54,982 nucleotides of DNA, from positions 1 through 54,982 of IMG/VR virus record IMGVR_UViG_3300030329_003381. One strand, given 5' to 3'. This DNA is from a virus. The notes beneath the pieces were generated by a model, which was given only the letters and a program-made list of their open reading frames with translations, had not been told where the DNA came from and searched no databases. The position numbers were made by a program, and so were the translations under genes. Shown here in pieces: positions 10,724 through 29,139 of this stretch (positions are counted from its first letter, which is position 1; every line of letters starts with the position of its first letter).

Positions 10724-11698
10724 ATGACAAAAAGATACACACGATTTGAAACACAAGCAGCAATGACTACTAATGATAGTAGTTGGACTGCAGGTGCCAA
10801 TGTGCATGTGCTCGATGTCAGCGGCGAAGATATTTCTGTAGATAATGGATATATTTATCCAGCAACAGCTTCTAGTAGACACTATAAACGTGGTATTAAA
10901 GGCCCGGTAAAAATTACAGGACCTATTGATACTCCTTTGTTCCCAAAAGGTGCAGCATCATTGCTATACTATACATTGGGTTCAAATACTACTTCAGGAA
11001 GCTCAGCACCATATACTCACACAATAAAGAAAGGAGATTCAATTCCTCAATTTAGTTGTGAAGTAGGTAAAGATGTTAAAGCTCACAAATTTGTTGGTGG
11101 TATAGTTAATTCTGCAACTATAGATTATGCACCAGATGATACACTCAATGGATCATTTGATACAATCTTTAGAAAAGAATTAGCAACAAGTTCCCTAGCA
11201 AGTGTCACATTCCCAGACTTTGATAGTGCTGAAAGAGCATTTGCAGGTCATGAATGTACCTTTAAGATTGGTGCAGCAGAAGGAGGAAGTCCAACAACAT
11301 CTACTATTTGTGAATCATTTTCATTATCCTTAGAAAATAATGTTGCAGACGACGCATTTGCTTTAGGAGATAGATATCTTCCAGCAAATATAGTTGCACA
11401 ATTTGCAGCATCAGGTACTATGGACTTGAGATATGATGCTAGCACACACTATGATGACTTTTTAGCAACAACTGAAAAAGAAATTCATATTGTAGCCGAC
11501 AACGGTTTAAGCAGCGCAAATAATAGAAAGCTAACAATAAAACTTCCAAGAATTGCATATGATTCTAACAGATTACCAACCGACAATGTAGAAAGATTTG
11601 TACAAGCAATTAGTTTCACTTGTGAAACCAATGCAGCTGGCGATCCAATAATTGTTGAAGTAATCAACGCCGAGACAGAAGCACAATTCACAGCTTAG
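10724..11698 (+). CDS. Major tail (tube) protein
   Basis: This 324-residue beta-rich protein lies directly before the tail chaperone and tape measure, as major tail proteins do. It contains a tube-like region ('IKGPVKITGPIDTPLFPKGAA', 'FKIGAAEGGSPTTSTICESF') and a long C-terminal part that may be an outward domain. An AGGTGA ribosome site is present eight bases before ATG. It would form the tube of a long-tailed virus; I see no sheath gene, so the tail should be non-contractile (siphovirus-like). Confidence 0.7.
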   Translation: MTKRYTRFETQAAMTTNDSSWTAGANVHVLDVSGEDISVDNGYIYPATASSRHYKRGIKGPVKITGPIDTPLFPKGAASLLYYTLGSNTTSGSSAPYTHTIKKGDSIPQFSCEVGKDVKAHKFVGGIVNSATIDYAPDDTLNGSFDTIFRKELATSSLASVTFPDFDSAERAFAGHECTFKIGAAEGGSPTTSTICESFSLSLENNVADDAFALGDRYLPANIVAQFAASGTMDLRYDASTHYDDFLATTEKEIHIVADNGLSSANNRKLTIKLPRIAYDSNRLPTDNVERFVQAISFTCETNAAGDPIIVEVINAETEAQFTA

Positions 11699-11707
11699 GA
11701 GAAAAAT

Positions 11708-12157
11708 ATGGTCAATCCAAAGATTCAACGTCTACGAGAGAAAACACAGCACACCGTGATCGTAAAAGATGAAAATCTAGGTGAGATCGAATGGGTAATT
11801 CGATCAATACCTGCATATGATTTGTTACAGCATTATGATTTATTTTCTTCCATGCCTCAAGACATCAACCTTGATGTAGATAAGGATGGACAGATGAGTG
11901 ATAAACAAGCTAAAGTACTTAAAGAAAAATTACTTCCAATGATGGAATTAATTGTTCCAGCATGTGCTATAGACCCTCCTGTTACCGTTGATCTAAAGGA
12001 TCCTCGAATAGCAGAAGGAGAAGCTTTACACTTGAGAGATATTTCATTCCAAGCAGTAACTGATTTATTTGCAAAGATTTTAGACGTTTCTGGTCTGTCA
12101 AAGGAGGCAGACGAGAAAAGAAAAAAATCGGCAGGAGCCAATTCGCCAAAACAATAG
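11708..12157 (+). CDS. Tail assembly chaperone, short form (gpG-like)
   Basis: A 149-residue acidic protein lies between the major tail protein and tape measure. This is exactly where tailed phages encode the G part of the G/GT chaperone pair that binds the tape measure and recruits tube subunits. It has 'EIEWVIRSIPAYDLLQHYDLF' near the N-terminus and helices after that. The last codons run over an A7 tract where ribosomes can slip (see the fused form). The short form is the normal zero-frame product. Confidence 0.7.
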   Translation: MVNPKIQRLREKTQHTVIVKDENLGEIEWVIRSIPAYDLLQHYDLFSSMPQDINLDVDKDGQMSDKQAKVLKEKLLPMMELIVPACAIDPPVTVDLKDPRIAEGEALHLRDISFQAVTDLFAKILDVSGLSKEADEKRKKSAGANSPKQ

Positions 12158-12351
12158 GTTCGTTATGTCATGCAGTTCCTTGTACACTCCCCCATCTCAT
12201 GTTGGGATATAATATAGATGACCCCGAAGGCATATTTCTTTCAGCGGAAATTCTTAATGCTTCAGCTCCTCAAGGGCAAGGAAGCCAAAGTAGTACAAAA
12301 GCTGGTCAACAACAACGAAGAGCGCGCTTGGCTCGTAAAAGCAGGTATTAA
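11708..12351 (+). CDS. Tail assembly chaperone, -1 frameshift fusion (gpGT-like)
   Basis: The -1 frame is open from the A7 tract to a TAA and has no start codon of its own in a useful place. Zero-frame translation gives 140 residues to the slip, then 74 residues in the -1 frame ('IGRSQFAKTIGSLCHAV' to 'RRARLARKSRY'), for a 214-residue fusion. The fused tail has 'PHLMLGYNIDDPEGIFLSAEIL' and a Gln/Arg-rich end, like T-domains that touch the tape measure. Without a frameshift, about 190 bases of clean coding sequence would be unexplained. This layout is the classical conserved G/GT arrangement of long-tailed phages. Confidence 0.75.
12102..12127 (+). promoter_or_regulatory. Programmed -1 frameshift site with upstream SD-like stimulator
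   Basis: The slippery heptamer A AAA AAA lies at 12121-12127, in register with zero-frame codons AAA AAA. An AGGAGG sequence (12102-12107) ends 13 bases before it. In the bacterial dnaX system an internal Shine-Dalgarno at about this distance increases -1 slippage. A clear downstream hairpin is not obvious, though GGC/GCC pairing is possible at about 12130-12146. The same AGGAGG is not placed to start a gene. Confidence 0.7.
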
Positions 12352-12359
12352 CCCACTCC

Positions 12360-12366
12360 TTTTTTT
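12360..12366 (+). terminator. Short U-tract before the tape measure gene
   Basis: A T7 run lies between the frameshift product stop and the tape-measure start. It follows 'CCCACTCC' without a strong hairpin. It may be a weak archaeal terminator or only the A/T-rich leader. The GAGGAATTATACG ribosome site of the tape measure follows directly. Confidence 0.3.
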
Positions 12367-12383
12367 ATTAGAGGAATTATACG

Positions 12384-15300
12384 ATGAATCCTAAAGAAAC
12401 AATTAATTTTATTTTCCAGTCCAATGTAGCTGGTATCAATAAAGCAGTAAATTCTGTAAAGAAACTTAATCAACATATAAAGAATACAAAGAAAGCAAGT
12501 AACGGTAGTTTCAATGCCATGAATAATGGCATGATAGAGACTGGAACTATTGCAGAAAAATTAGGTAACAAATTCGGTTTCATTGCATTTCAGTGGACAT
12601 TTATAGCTGGTACTGCAAGTAGAGCATTAAATGAAATTCGAATGGCAGCTCAGGAAGTCTTCCGTGAAGGCGCCGAAGGCATGTCAAAGATTCAAAGAGC
12701 TTCATTAGAAGCATTTGAACTAGGTGATTCATTAGACGAAACAAACAGAAAGATGAAAATCTTCTCTCAGTATGCTCAAGAAATGGGTTCGGGAGAAACA
12801 ATGTTTGGTGCTGGAGAAATAGCAGATACATTAAAAGAAGTAGTTAAAGCTACTAACGATATTAACTCAGCAATTCCAATTACAAACTCACTTCTGAAAT
12901 TAATGACAATTGAAGAAGTGGATGCAGCTAAAGGTGCTAAAGGTTTCCTTGCTGTAATGAATAACTTTAAATTAACAGGCGAAGATGTAAATAGAGTAAC
13001 TAATACATTAGTTGCTGTAAACAAACAATCTAGACTTTCTCTAGATGAAGTAATCCATTCATATGAGTTTGCAGGTCAGCAAGCTAGATTAATGGGATTA
13101 GATATAGAAGAAGCAGGTACCTTGATTGGTATGATTGGTGACCAATTACCAGCTGGAACTGTAGGTAGAACCTTCTCACAGATGCTTGTTAACTTTAGAA
13201 AAGAAACTGTAGCATTAAATCCATTGTTATCACAGATGGGTGTTAACTTGTATGACAATGAAGGCAACATGAGAGGCTTTGCAAATATCATGAGAGATAT
13301 GTCAAAGATGATGAAAGATGCTGGTGATAAAAATGATTACTTCAGAGACTCTTTATTGAGAAGTATGAAGTTAGATACTCGAGCAGAGAGAGTATTCTTA
13401 GCATTAATTAATAACTTTGAAGAGTATGAAGATAGATTAGAAAAAGTAAGACGTGGTGGAGAGTATGTAGACTTTCTATATGAACAATTAAAGAATTCTC
13501 CTGAAGCTGCAATGAAGAGAATACAGCATGCTTTGGGTCAATTAAAGATTCAATTAGTAGCAGGATTTGCTCCAGCATTATTACAGATATTAGAAATATT
13601 AATGGAGTTTGTTAGAAGAGAAGAAATTCAAAGAGCATTCCATGCTATAGGAAAAGCTATAGGTCAAAATATAATTCCAGTTGTAGAAGGAGCAGTATGG
13701 CTATTTAGAGGATTAGTTGCATTGTATAAGAAACTAGGATTAGGTGCTGATGGACTATCAAAGATATTCTTAGGATTATCATTAGCCTTAGGATCATTAG
13801 TTGTAGTTGGTACTTTAATTACATTATTTGCAATGTTTGCTAGCTTGGCAGAAAAAGCTGCTGCTAAGATGGCTGTATTGGGAATCACAACCAGATTTAC
13901 AAACATGACAATGTCATCATTCTTAATTGGCATGATGAGAGTTGGTGCTATTATGTTTGGACTTTGGTTCTTAATATCTGGTGTTAATAGATTAATAACA
14001 ACATTATCTGATGGTTTCCAAGAAGGAGAAGAAGAAGCTGTATTAATGGGATTAGGATTAACTGCTTTGGGTGCAGCTATGGTAGCATTACCATTATTAC
14101 CGTTAATAACTAGACTAGCAGGAGCTGTAGCAGGAAGTGCAGCCTTAACAGGTGCCTTTGGTGTATTATCGATAGCAATGAAAGGAGTTGGAGTAGCATT
14201 TATGACTACTCCATTGGGTGCAGCAATTGCAGTATTTGCAGCAGTAGCCACAGCAACATACTTAGCTACTGAAGCTATCAAAGATCATGTTAATGCATGG
14301 GCTGATGTAAAACCAAATGATGATTTAGCTACTGTATGGCAAAAGATATTCTTAAAGATTGGTGACTTGAGTGCAGAAGAATTTATTGGAGGATTCCATA
14401 CTTTCTTCGAAGAGAAATTTGCAATCGGTCAATGGATATGGGATGCAGTAAGTAAAGCACATACATTTATTATGGCACAAGGTGGATTACTTGCTGCAAT
14501 GATAGATGCAGGATTTAAAGGTGATTGGTCACGTATGTTTGACATTGGTGGAGAAATTCAAAGAAATGTTACAAGTGCAGCTATTAAATTTAAAATGAGT
14601 GGTGTACTTTTGGCTGAAAGTATATGGCAAGGTATTGTAGACTTCTTTACAGGTAAAACTATATGGGATGCTGTAATGGCACAAGACACATACTTTAAAT
14701 ATAGTAATCCAGATTTATTCGAAGATGATCGTACTCAAGAAGAAAAAGATGCAGCAAAATTACATCCAGCATTCCAAATACATACAGAACAAATACAAGA
14801 GAATGTTGATTCATTAGCAGAAACAGTAGGAGAAGTAGAAGTAGCTACAGAGACAGTTGTAGCTGAAGTAGAAGAATTTACAGAAGGTATGGATGGAATA
14901 ACTAAAGAAGCTGAGAAATTAGCTGAACAAGTAGAAGAAGAAACCAAAGCAATTATTAAAGAAAATGAAATAACTACTAAAGTAAGTGATACAAAGCAAC
15001 AAGTAGAGAAGACATTATTGACTAGTAAGAACTTAGAGATTACTCATATGGCTAGAATGGTAGAATTAATAAGAGATAAGATGAGATTACATGATTTATA
15101 TCAATGGCAAATTGAAATAATGGATCAATCTTTTATACCTGAAACTATTAATACTGTAACACATTTAGTTGAATTCCAAGATAGACTTATTGTAGCTAGT
15201 AACGCTTTCGATAGATTAGCATGGGCTGCTGATAGAACAGTTAGTCGATTAGCTAGTGTAAAAATAAGTGCTTCGGGTAAATTTAGTATGGCTTCCTTTG

Positions 15301-15539
15301 GAGCATTACCAGGTGGAATGATTAACAATATGCCTGTTGCAACACCTACACGCGGAGTATCACAAGACATAATGAACCAATTGTTAGGATTGCGCCCAGA
15401 AGCTCCGGTAGTAAATAATAACATTGAATTGACAATGGATATTGAAAGTATTAGATCTGAAGAAGATATAGAAAGAATGGCAGGATTAGTAGCAGATAAA
15501 ATAGCAGAAGAATTACCTAGTAAGAGTGTGACTGAATAA
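12384..15539 (+). CDS. Tail tape measure protein
   Basis: The 1051-residue protein is the longest in the block and lies behind the chaperone pair. It starts with 'INFIFQSNVAGINKAVNSVKKLNQHI', a typical tape-measure N-terminus. It has phage tail tape measure phrases such as 'LSLDEVIHSYEFAGQQARLMGLDIEEAGTLIGMIGDQ' in pieces between residues 215 and 255. Several hydrophobic segments (about 450-625) could cross a membrane during DNA ejection, and a Glu-rich coiled region lies at about 790-880. It sets tail length: at about 1.5 Angstrom per residue the tail would be near 150 nm. GAGG precedes the ATG. Confidence 0.85.
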   Translation: MNPKETINFIFQSNVAGINKAVNSVKKLNQHIKNTKKASNGSFNAMNNGMIETGTIAEKLGNKFGFIAFQWTFIAGTASRALNEIRMAAQEVFREGAEGMSKIQRASLEAFELGDSLDETNRKMKIFSQYAQEMGSGETMFGAGEIADTLKEVVKATNDINSAIPITNSLLKLMTIEEVDAAKGAKGFLAVMNNFKLTGEDVNRVTNTLVAVNKQSRLSLDEVIHSYEFAGQQARLMGLDIEEAGTLIGMIGDQLPAGTVGRTFSQMLVNFRKETVALNPLLSQMGVNLYDNEGNMRGFANIMRDMSKMMKDAGDKNDYFRDSLLRSMKLDTRAERVFLALINNFEEYEDRLEKVRRGGEYVDFLYEQLKNSPEAAMKRIQHALGQLKIQLVAGFAPALLQILEILMEFVRREEIQRAFHAIGKAIGQNIIPVVEGAVWLFRGLVALYKKLGLGADGLSKIFLGLSLALGSLVVVGTLITLFAMFASLAEKAAAKMAVLGITTRFTNMTMSSFLIGMMRVGAIMFGLWFLISGVNRLITTLSDGFQEGEEEAVLMGLGLTALGAAMVALPLLPLITRLAGAVAGSAALTGAFGVLSIAMKGVGVAFMTTPLGAAIAVFAAVATATYLATEAIKDHVNAWADVKPNDDLATVWQKIFLKIGDLSAEEFIGGFHTFFEEKFAIGQWIWDAVSKAHTFIMAQGGLLAAMIDAGFKGDWSRMFDIGGEIQRNVTSAAIKFKMSGVLLAESIWQGIVDFFTGKTIWDAVMAQDTYFKYSNPDLFEDDRTQEEKDAAKLHPAFQIHTEQIQENVDSLAETVGEVEVATETVVAEVEEFTEGMDGITKEAEKLAEQVEEETKAIIKENEITTKVSDTKQQVEKTLLTSKNLEITHMARMVELIRDKMRLHDLYQWQIEIMDQSFIPETINTVTHLVEFQDRLIVASNAFDRLAWAADRTVSRLASVKISASGKFSMASFGALPGGMINNMPVATPTRGVSQDIMNQLLGLRPEAPVVNNNIELTMDIESIRSEEDIERMAGLVADKIAEELPSKSVTE

Positions 15540-26036: not shown

Positions 26037-26713
26037 TTCGATATCACATTATCCAACATGAATCGAATTCTTTGTAATCTACTTGGACCAATTCCTGGAA
26101 CTTTAAGCAATTCATCATCATCAGCATTCACTATACATCTTACTGTAGAAAATCTATCTAAAAGATTTTGTGCGACATCAGTCGGAACATTTAATAATAA
26201 TTTAACCACTTCTCTTTGTGGGTTTTCAGTTCGTTTTATTCTTCTATCTTTAATCTGATCCAGCTTCCCTTCTGCAATCTTTTTCAAGAGTTTCGTAGCC
26301 ACCATCAAACCATCATTATGTGGATCAGAATAACCATCTTGTATCCAAATTACACTTCTCAATCCAAATCTAACTATTGCACTTGCAATTGCTCCTTGAA
26401 CGTGTTCTTCGGTTATCTTGCTCTTCTTGTAATACTTTTCTACTTCTTTGTAACTACCTGTAATAAGTAAAATTGGTATAGGCTCTGAAGCTAATCGTTT
26501 TAATTGATCTTCTAATCTACCTGATAGAAGACTTTGCATAAAATCAGAAATTGCTTTTCTTTCTATTGTAACTTTACCATCATCAGCATAAGCTGCATAG
26601 TCACCACATGATAAAGCTTTTACTGTAAATTCTATTCCATTGTGTTTAAGTAAAGTTCTTTGTTTAACTTTTTCTCTGGAATCAACAACAATCTCTATGT
26701 CTTTTGCGGCCAT
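26033..26713 (-). CDS. ERCC4/XPF-family structure-specific nuclease
   Basis: The 226-residue protein shows the XPF signature: 'VDSRE' (Asp11), 'GDYA' (Asp38) and the catalytic 'ERK' (Glu51-Lys53) followed by 'AISDFMQSLLSGRLEDQL'. The C-terminus has a helix-hairpin-helix ('VPGIGPSRLQ', about 204-213) for DNA binding. It has the compact nuclease-plus-HhH build of archaeal XPF without a helicase domain. It would cut flaps or branched DNA during replication or recombination. It overlaps QueC by 19 nt. Confidence 0.85.
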   Translation of the reverse strand: MAAKDIEIVVDSREKVKQRTLLKHNGIEFTVKALSCGDYAAYADDGKVTIERKAISDFMQSLLSGRLEDQLKRLASEPIPILLITGSYKEVEKYYKKSKITEEHVQGAIASAIVRFGLRSVIWIQDGYSDPHNDGLMVATKLLKKIAEGKLDQIKDRRIKRTENPQREVVKLLLNVPTDVAQNLLDRFSTVRCIVNADDDELLKVPGIGPSRLQRIRFMLDNVISK

Positions 26714-27435
26714 GTTTCTACTCCTTCATCATAAGCGATTGGATCTTTAATTCCTGCCTGACCGAAACCTAAGAGTCTGTATTCACAACTTGGACATTTG
26801 CCACAAGCTTTCATTCCACCTCGATAACAAGACCAAGTCTTATCCCAAGGTACTCCTACTTCCTCTCCTAATCTAACTACATCTGCTTTTGTAAGATACA
26901 CAATTGGTGCATGTACAAAAATATCATTTGTATGTGTTTTGATTACTTCGTTTACTTTTGCTATGTATTCTGGTCTGCAATCCGGATAACCAGAATAATC
27001 AATAATATTAGCACCATAAAAGATATCAGTATATCCCCATGACTGTGCATATCCAGCTGCAATGGCTAACATTATAGTATTTCTAAATGGTACATAAGTT
27101 GGTGGAACATCTGAAGTTGCACCATCTGGTATTTCAATATCAGAATCTTTACTCAAAGCTGTAACAAAATTACTTGCTAGATTATTCAAGTCAATTGTTT
27201 TCACATCAGCTTGATATTCCCAACCAACTTCTCTAGCACATATAATTTCTTTACTATGGGTCTGACCATAATCAAAAGTTATACAACCTACTTCTCTAGA
27301 ACAAGATTTAGCTAGTCCTAAACAAGTTGCACTATCCATTCCACCAGATATTATTACTAGTGTCTTAGACAAGTTCAACTTTCTTGAAGTCGACATAACT
27401 TCACTTGTTGATTTACCCCATTCCATAAAATTCAT
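26695..27435 (-). CDS. queC: 7-cyano-7-deazaguanine (preQ0) synthase QueC
   Basis: QueC is an ATP-dependent enzyme that converts 7-carboxy-7-deazaguanine to preQ0 with ammonia. The sequence has the PP-loop 'SGGMDSATC' (about 30-38), 'FDYGQTHSKEI', the 'FRNTIMLAIAAGYA' segment and the zinc-binding Cys cluster 'SCYRGGMKACGKCPSC' near residues 203-218. At 246 residues it is of normal length with all motifs kept. The gene starts with TAATG on the stop of a small zinc gene. Together with FolE, QueE and QueD in the same strand it completes the preQ0 pathway. Confidence 0.95.
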   Translation of the reverse strand: MNFMEWGKSTSEVMSTSRKLNLSKTLVIISGGMDSATCLGLAKSCSREVGCITFDYGQTHSKEIICAREVGWEYQADVKTIDLNNLASNFVTALSKDSDIEIPDGATSDVPPTYVPFRNTIMLAIAAGYAQSWGYTDIFYGANIIDYSGYPDCRPEYIAKVNEVIKTHTNDIFVHAPIVYLTKADVVRLGEEVGVPWDKTWSCYRGGMKACGKCPSCEYRLLGFGQAGIKDPIAYDEGVETWPQKT

Positions 27436-27671
27436 TAGTATAACTCCATTCCTATTTTACACATAGGACAAACTGTTTTTCCATCTACTTGTTTCATTTC
27501 TTTTGGACAAAAGTCACCAGGACATTCATCACATCTTTGCAGATGAGAACTGAAACATCCTTTACAACCTTCCATTCCGCATCCCGCACAATCTTCTATA
27601 CAATACTGACAAAGAACAATCCCACATTTACTGCATAGCACTGTATGTTCACAATGTCTGACATCAGTCAT
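27435..27671 (-). CDS. Cysteine-rich zinc-binding protein (78 aa) between queC and folE
   Basis: Fourteen of 78 residues are cysteine, arranged as repeated CxxC and CxxxC pairs ('CSKCGIVLCQYC', 'CAGCGMEGCKGC', 'CDECPGDFC', 'CPMC'). That is enough for about three zinc sites, like B-box, RING-like or DnaJ-like zinc folds. It is inserted between two pathway genes with TAATG and ATG overlaps, so it is co-translated. Its function is unknown; regulation or assembly of the modification enzymes is one possibility. Confidence 0.7.
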   Translation of the reverse strand: MTDVRHCEHTVLCSKCGIVLCQYCIEDCAGCGMEGCKGCFSSHLQRCDECPGDFCPKEMKQVDGKTVCPMCKIGMELY

Positions 27672-28252
27672 TACGCCTTTCCTAGATTAAGCAAATCTAA
27701 AAATTCTTGTCGAGGATTAAATCCTTCTGGTGGCTTTGCAAATACACCTGTTAAACTACTTGTAGTAGTTACTGTCTCAGGTTGTTTTACGCCTCGAGCA
27801 CGCATACAGTTGTGAATGCCTTTACAAACAACCATTACCCCTTTACAATTCAAACCTTTGTGTAAAACGTTTGCCAACTCAGAAGTATAATCCTCTTGTA
27901 TCCAAGGATATCTTGCAAGATCAATAGCAATACGTGAGAGTTTTGAAAGTCCTATTGCTTTTCCTTCTGGAACATATCCTATGTATACGTCGTATTCTAT
28001 CAACAACATATGATGTGGACACATTGAAAACGTTTTAATTGGGTCTTGTACCACTAAGCCATTATTAATTGTTGGGAATGTAGCTTTAAAATGATCACAC
28101 AATGATTCATCGATTTGTTTTTTAGACAAACCTTGATAAACTGCGAGCCATTTAGCAAATCGTTTTGGCGTGTCATTAAAGTTGATATCTCCACCCCAAC
28201 CCATGACATCAACTAATTCTTCGATTAGTCTTTCTATCTTTTCGGTTTTCAT
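27671..28252 (-). CDS. folE: GTP cyclohydrolase I (FolE type)
   Basis: FolE turns GTP into dihydroneopterin triphosphate, the first step towards preQ0. The 193 residues keep the zinc ligands Cys78 and His81 in 'CPHHMLLIEYDVYIGYVPEGK' and Cys149 in 'HNCMRARG', and the substrate loop 'GLSKLSRI'. I chose the ATG that overlaps the QueE stop by ATGA rather than an upstream in-frame ATG inside QueE, because it gives the standard N-terminus. In a virus this step feeds base modification. Confidence 0.93.
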   Translation of the reverse strand: MKTEKIERLIEELVDVMGWGGDINFNDTPKRFAKWLAVYQGLSKKQIDESLCDHFKATFPTINNGLVVQDPIKTFSMCPHHMLLIEYDVYIGYVPEGKAIGLSKLSRIAIDLARYPWIQEDYTSELANVLHKGLNCKGVMVVCKGIHNCMRARGVKQPETVTTTSSLTGVFAKPPEGFNPRQEFLDLLNLGKA

Positions 28253-29139
28253 ATCCCGTCCATTTCTCCTGGCCAATATATTTTGTGAAGTTGACATAAT
28301 ACTCTACAATTATTTGTGTGAACTGAGTTTAAAAACGTTTCGGCGAACTCAGCATAGGACAACCATCCTTTGGGCAATTTACCCGCCTCATGTGCCGGCT
28401 GTTGAAACTTTTCAAGATACAGACTATAATCCCTTAAAGTCTCTGCGTATTCTTTATTCTTTTTAACTTCAGCTTCTGACCACATGACAGGTTGAATCGT
28501 AACGTTAATAGGATCGAAGAATTTAATTTGGTTCAAAGCATATGTAATATCTTCTTTAGTTTTTGCTATAGCCATTTTAAATTCAATTTTATTTCTTAAA
28601 GTTTCATTTTCTATACAAGCACCAATAAATTCATTCTGTACTGTTTGATCTCCTTTAAATGCTCTACTAGCTGGAGGTTTTAAATCAATAGTAATGAAAT
28701 CTAATTTATCAAGTAATGGAACATATACTTCTTCTCCTGCTGTAATCATATGCCATATCTTTTTATGATTAGGATTTCTCTTTTCAAACCATTCTATGAA
28801 ATGCAATATATCTTTTGAGAACTCTGTTGGTTCACCACCAGTCCACCAAATACGATCTACATTCCAAAACTCTTTCATAAACATTTCTTCCAAGTCTTCA
28901 AATGTATATCTTGTACCTAAAGGTTTACTATTTTTCTTTCCAGGCCAAGTAGACATTGCATCACACCAGGAACAGCCTACATTGCATCCTTGAAATCTGA
29001 CAAAGATACAGCTTTGTCCTATAAAATTACCTTCACCATTAATTGTAGGATAAGGTCTTTCATATAAATATAAAGCCTCTTCTCCCCAGCCTAATGGTTT
29101 TTCAATCACATTCGTTTGATTCTTCATTTTCATCTTCAT
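28249..29139 (-). CDS. queE: 7-carboxy-7-deazaguanine synthase QueE (radical SAM)
   Basis: QueE converts 6-carboxy-tetrahydropterin to 7-carboxy-7-deazaguanine. The sequence has 'PTINGEGNFIGQSCIFVRF' and the radical-SAM cluster motif CxxxCxxC ('CNVGCSWC', Cys52, Cys56, Cys59). 'WWTGGEPTEF' and 'FITIDLKPP' follow as in the family. The length, 296 residues, is a little above usual. Several ATG codons lie close together at the start ('MKMKMK'), and the true start could be four codons in. It overlaps FolE by ATGA. Confidence 0.93.
   Translation of the reverse strand: MKMKMKNQTNVIEKPLGWGEEALYLYERPYPTINGEGNFIGQSCIFVRFQGCNVGCSWCDAMSTWPGKKNSKPLGTRYTFEDLEEMFMKEFWNVDRIWWTGGEPTEFSKDILHFIEWFEKRNPNHKKIWHMITAGEEVYVPLLDKLDFITIDLKPPASRAFKGDQTVQNEFIGACIENETLRNKIEFKMAIAKTKEDITYALNQIKFFDPINVTIQPVMWSEAEVKKNKEYAETLRDYSLYLEKFQQPAHEAGKLPKGWLSYAEFAETFLNSVHTNNCRVLCQLHKIYWPGEMDGI

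Follow-up and report, generated by a model that had tools for sequence, protein, structure and literature searches.

A likely −1 frameshift with a putative internal Shine-Dalgarno-like stimulator in the tail chaperone gene of an archaeal virus

The tail gene region of IMG/VR virus record IMGVR_UViG_3300030329_003381, all 54,982 nt of which are referred to here as the window, raises the question of how two overlapping reading frames between the tail tube and tape measure genes are translated. The tail tube protein gene (10724-11698, + strand; PF18906, E 2e-19; PHROG 290) is followed on the same strand by gene G (11708-12157, ATG at 11708 and TAG ending at 12157), the zero frame for a tail assembly chaperone short form of 149 aa, then by the T segment in the −1 frame (12127-12351, + strand) and the tape measure protein gene (12384-15539, + strand; PF10145, E 1e-18; PHROG tape measure families). 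The placement of the G/T pair between the tube and the tape measure genes is the lambda G/GT layout, and a sequence-only reading of this DNA had rightly identified it as the tailed-phage order. G itself matches the PHROG 344 tail assembly chaperone weakly (E 6e-4) and has no match in Pfam or NCBIfam. The AlphaFold model of G, built without an alignment, is of low confidence (pLDDT 43) and was not used for fold searches. Searches with tblastn of G and the tube protein against phage records returned nothing, and single-protein scans of viral contigs with G, tube, terminase and tape measure recovered only one contig. With an alignment as the query, distant G homologs at 27-30% identity were found in four viral contigs (L228-L231) and in genome G807, in addition to a close homolog in L001 (IMGVR_UViG_3300032006_000047), an independently assembled contig about 5% different from the window.

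Two further observations concern the neighbourhood of the pair. A run of seven T's at 12360-12366 follows the T stop, precedes the tape measure gene and is kept in the close relative; it might act as a weak archaeal terminator or pause site for transcription between GT and that gene. Comparison of the tape measure proteins of the two close relatives (window 12384-15539 and L003:4001-7372) showed ~64-69% identity, versus 97% for the tube, G and terminase. The divergence lies mostly beyond ~residue 575, a pattern suggestive of recombination or of a region that changes fast locally.

Near the end of G, inside its overlap with the T frame, lies a run of seven A's (12121-12127, + strand). As 12121 occupies the third position of a G codon, the run reads A_AAA_AAA and forms a slippery heptamer in the X_XXY_YYZ register. 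The register is thus as the sequence-only reading had described it, at the end of the zero frame. In-register A_AAA_AAN heptamers occur 12 times in the 13,790 codon positions of the window's genes, and the chance of one falling within the 31-codon overlap is ~0.027. The sequence 3' of the slip site showed no stable or conserved structure or stem-loop, folding no better than shuffled sequences; a conserved 3' structure was rejected on this ground.

The −1 frame is open from 12064 to 12351, and its part from the slip site onward, the T segment, comprises 74 codons plus a TAA at 12349-12351. Slippage on the heptamer would yield a GT fusion reading ...KK|IGRSQFAKT... across the junction. An earlier description of this frame as 74 codons with no start was correct in the length but not in the start, as an ATG is present at 12199, the first of the T frame, with no Shine-Dalgarno (SD) sequence visible ahead of it. 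The close relative keeps the A7 run and both frames. Comparison of the two sequences downstream of the slip site showed 16 synonymous and 7 non-synonymous nucleotide changes when read in the −1 frame, versus 2/21 in the zero frame and 1/22 in the +1 frame, indicating that the T frame is under purifying selection. Replacements such as TCA to AGC, AGA to CGT and CGC to AGG leave the protein read in the −1 frame unchanged. In the 24 codons ahead of the ATG (12127-12198) there are three changes, each of them likewise synonymous in that frame. This substitution pattern is the strongest evidence in the sequences that T would be translated in the −1 frame from the overlap onward. A zero-frame open reading frame at 12218-12394 was considered as coding and rejected (2 synonymous and 21 non-synonymous changes).

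These results support the earlier proposal of a programmed −1 frameshift in a G/GT tail chaperone through the layout, the register, the purifying selection on the T frame and the conservation of the site in the close relative, and we consider it very likely that −1 frameshifting makes GT. Most ribosomes would translate G and stop at 12157, producing the short chaperone. In a minority, both Lys tRNAs would slip back by one base on A_AAA_AAA and T would be read to 12351, producing the GT fusion. On the model of lambda, the tape measure protein may be bound by the G part and the tail tube subunit by the T part, and assembly would be sensitive to the G:GT ratio.

An SD-like element, AGGAGG, lies inside G at 12102-12107 (+ strand), forms the core of AAAGGAGG (12100-12107) and is kept in the close relative. 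It is a candidate stimulator of the −1 shift. A spacer of 13 nt (12108-12120, + strand) separates it from the heptamer, the distance that the sequence-only reading had noted. In the published account of −1 stimulation, the SD element precedes the slip site by 9-14 nt and has no competing SD sequences ahead of it (PMC5009743). The 13-nt spacer falls within this published range, and a competing SD is absent for ~40 nt upstream of AGGAGG, where the pairing profile is near zero from about −69 to −27 nt. AGGAGG is not an ordinary start-codon SD because no ATG, GTG or TTG lies within initiation distance of it in any frame. Its duplex with the anti-SD has an energy of −10.0 kcal/mol, and equal or stronger pairing at that distance was found at 0.2-0.4% of frame-matched coding positions (0.2% with a narrower interval). 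The joint occurrence of the heptamer and an anti-SD pairing of this strength by chance is unlikely. The virus uses SD sequences for initiation, as SD pairing of −5 kcal/mol or stronger is found at 56% of its gene starts and at 10% of random sites. Of the 27 loci whose sequence reached far enough to show the 16S 3' end, nearly all are archaeal, and every one carries there the anti-SD ATCACCTCC, with which AGGAGG would pair. Shuffling of synonymous codons in the window gave p = 0.0485 for the element. The conservation of AGGAGG over ~40 nt, in one close relative only, is not significant by itself.

To place the element in context, tail-tube loci from archaeal genomes were sampled, and the gene after the tube was scanned for −1 overlaps with heptamers. 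Some of the −1 heptamers in this survey (GGGTTTT, CCCTTTA and AAATTTC types) are probably chance matches, and little was gained from searching the Methanocaldococcus and Asgard phyla. SD statistics were calculated over 13 homology groups with the window left out. Pairing with the anti-SD peaks just upstream of the slip site, with a mean of −5.5 versus about −2.5 kcal/mol, and the true anti-SD ranks 7th of 168 letter permutations. The enriched SD-like sequence could nevertheless be a by-product of a purine-rich, Glu/Lys/Gly-rich protein tail. As a separate observation, the HHTV-2 record (L012:1508-1568) annotates G and T as two genes, although the −1 frame of T stays open upstream into G and a GGAGG lies 10 nt before a GGAAAAC at the G end; this heptamer is not canonical.

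The main alternative for the element is that the A7 run shifts as proposed and AGGAGG is incidental, encoding Lys-Glu-Ala with no role in slippage. Synonymous shuffling over the 13 other archaeal families gave a median combined p of 0.57 and no sign of codons being chosen to favour SD, the SD signal before archaeal slip sites is mostly generic purine richness, and an SD 5-mer is missing altogether from several A6 sites in archaea. However, the spacing in the window fits the −1 rule and upstream competitors are absent. In 3.4 of the 13 independent archaeal families an SD 5-mer is present at 7-15 nt, where 0.7 would be expected (P about 0.004-0.03), and AAG and GAG are the minority Lys and Glu codons here (279 versus 753 and 233 versus 739, respectively). 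An incidental AGGAGG retains a sizeable but lesser share of our confidence, and stimulation of the −1 shift by AGGAGG is plausible on the strength of its sequence and position. The element would probably pair with the 3' end of the 16S rRNA of the translating ribosome and raise the shift rate, as in dnaX.

Other explanations concern the shift itself. RNA polymerase, rather than the ribosome, could slip on the A7 run and produce mRNAs with an extra A, since a homopolymer of seven A's can support transcriptional slippage. Such slippage needs neither a codon register nor a precisely spaced SD, and the corresponding junction in the distant relatives, TTT_CGC, has no suitable homopolymer, so we regard this explanation as improbable. 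We give slightly less credence still to separate genes, with T started from the internal ATG at 12199 or by re-initiation after the G stop. The ATG exists in the T frame, but it lacks a visible SD, the conservation of 12127-12198 in the T frame lies ahead of it, and in the distant relatives, too, the T frame reaches upstream into G. The frame change could also be a mistake in assembling the A7 tract, as homopolymers are error-prone on some platforms. However, the second contig, despite its differences, has the same A7 run and both frames, and five other contigs or genomes also have an out-of-frame T, making such an error already very unlikely. The production of G and GT by a −1 slip on the A7 run, with AGGAGG probably stimulating, is thus strongly favoured as a whole from the sequences. 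The layout, the register, the T-frame selection, the conservation in the close relative and the out-of-frame T of the distant relatives are observed here; from them we infer the occurrence of the shift, its rate, the effect of the SD-like element and the roles of the proteins.

The sequence-only reading had proposed to check whether relatives keep both the heptamer and AGGAGG. The close relative does, whereas the distant relatives have neither and carry a +1 junction at TTT_CGC. In all five of them T lies in the +1 frame, AAA_TTT_CGC is kept in the overlap, and the T frames likewise extend upstream into G. The +1 T frame is under purifying selection among these relatives (for example, 19/9 versus 2/26 and 0/28, in the notation used above). 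A further homolog, in L168, matches that of L228 with E 4e-11 and that of the window with no better than E 0.02; TTT_CGC is present and the T pattern is similar. Between the window and L228, T shows weak profile similarity (E 0.023) together with a match in position and pattern, and its putative homology is suggested mainly by the latter two. The window has no TTT_CGN, and its predicted shift direction is −1. The simplest reading, with the direction drawn from few lineages, is that +1 shifting at UUU_CGC would be older in the G family and that the lineage of the window would have switched to −1. We give about even weight to the fuller proposal that one chaperone family flipped its recoding direction, in which two related clades would shift +1 at UUU_CGC and the lineage of the window substituted a −1 shift on A7 with a dnaX-type internal SD.

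The TTT_CGN motif is known from some eukaryotic viruses. In HF1-like haloviruses, a conserved TTT-CGC has been pointed out for the +1 shift (PMC7230728). In our sample, TTT_CGN was found at +1 overlaps in loci of Thermoproteota, Halobacteriota and Thermoplasmatota and in HSTV-2, HF2 and HRTV-27; the archaeal loci with the motif are L228-L231, L233, L168, L138, L147, L148, L157, L160, L162, L175, L191, L202, L136, L139, HSTV-2 (L237), HF2 (L238) and HRTV-27 (L008). Under one automatic rule, TTT_CGN in the last 30 codons of the candidate G, the motif was present in 14 of 80 archaeal loci versus 1.0 expected (P about 1e-9 or less if the loci are independent). The loci span at least four or five homology groups, so that the effective number is smaller, and the excess remains. 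In 12 of the 14, the +1 frame is open for at least 35 codons past the stop. Elsewhere the motif is rare (2-4 per 10,000 codons). It was found in none of the 24 Pseudomonadota loci of the same tube family, eleven of which have canonical signals, all −1, and in none of the −1-type haloviruses. Nearly all archaeal loci with a +1 T have an in-frame TTT_CGN at the G end, L153 being an exception. HRTV-27 (L008:13063-13903) is annotated with a putative −2 frameshift; its overlap has TTT_CGC, and a +1 shift reaches the same frame.

The gene content supports the earlier assignment to an archaeal virus. The window encodes an XPF/Hef-type nuclease of the archaeal type, a HerA closest to archaeal models, and a PolB nearest that of the haloarchaeal virus HRTV-27. 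Homologs of FolE, QueC and QueE are encoded at 26695-29139 and suggest 7-deazaguanine DNA modification, as in HCTV-5, which likewise carries Hef, QueC, QueD, QueE and a GTP cyclohydrolase. The contig that carries one of the distant G homologs was assigned to a genome belonging to the same phylum as a Poseidoniales genome. The virus probably infects a marine archaeon, with "marine" taken from the relatives of the virus group in the literature (PMC8651126).

Comparisons with known systems place the site among them. The window resembles lambda gpG/gpGT in the layout, the −1 direction, a T without its own start and the inferred role. Lambda slips on G_GGA_AAG, whereas the window has an archaeal host and combines an A7 heptamer with an SD-like element. 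Escherichia coli dnaX shares an A6-type heptamer and an SD-like element within 9-14 nt (PMC5009743), but the window belongs to an archaeal virus, no stable 3' stem was found in it, and stimulation here is putative. In fucA1 of Saccharolobus solfataricus, a −1 shift at A_AAA_AAT has been demonstrated in vitro (PMC8211752). This is likewise a −1 shift at an A6 heptamer in an archaeon, but fucA1 is a cellular gene with rare codons and a stem-loop instead of an SD element. The HF1-group haloviruses, with +1 at TTT_CGC (PMC7230728), have the same gene pair and output, and their motif is shared by the distant G relatives of the window, whereas the window itself lacks TTT_CGN and would shift −1. Shifting between G and T has already been listed as −1 for HVTV-1, HCTV-1, -2 and -5 and as +1 for HSTV-2 (PMC5009743, PMC8211752). 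Since −1 G/GT shifting in archaeal viruses has been described before (PMC5009743), only the SD element would be new. HVTV-1, HCTV-1, HCTV-2 and HCTV-5 are, like the virus of the window, archaeal tailed viruses with the tube-G-T-tape measure order, and HCTV-5 and HVTV-1 have a GGAGG of their own 10 nt upstream of the slip site. In comparison with these sites, the G of the window is not detectably related, its heptamer is different and its SD stands out more strongly from its own background. A search of the open-licence literature found no account of archaeal frameshifting stimulated by an SD.

With this site, tail-chaperone frameshifting reaches an uncultured archaeal virus, probably a marine one, and a clean candidate becomes available for asking if an internal SD influences archaeal ribosomes as they elongate, an effect of which the open-licence literature yielded no report. 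More is gained from the comparison than from the site alone: sister clades appear to join a homologous gene pair by shifts in opposite directions. The occurrence of TTT_CGN at archaeal +1 junctions and in none of the sampled bacterial loci makes a shared archaeal and eukaryotic weakness at UUU_CGN directly testable. The chaperone layout appears to be conserved and the way of making it not. If the proposed flip is true, an SD-stimulated −1 frameshift would have taken over from a +1 signal in archaea while the fusion protein itself was conserved all along.
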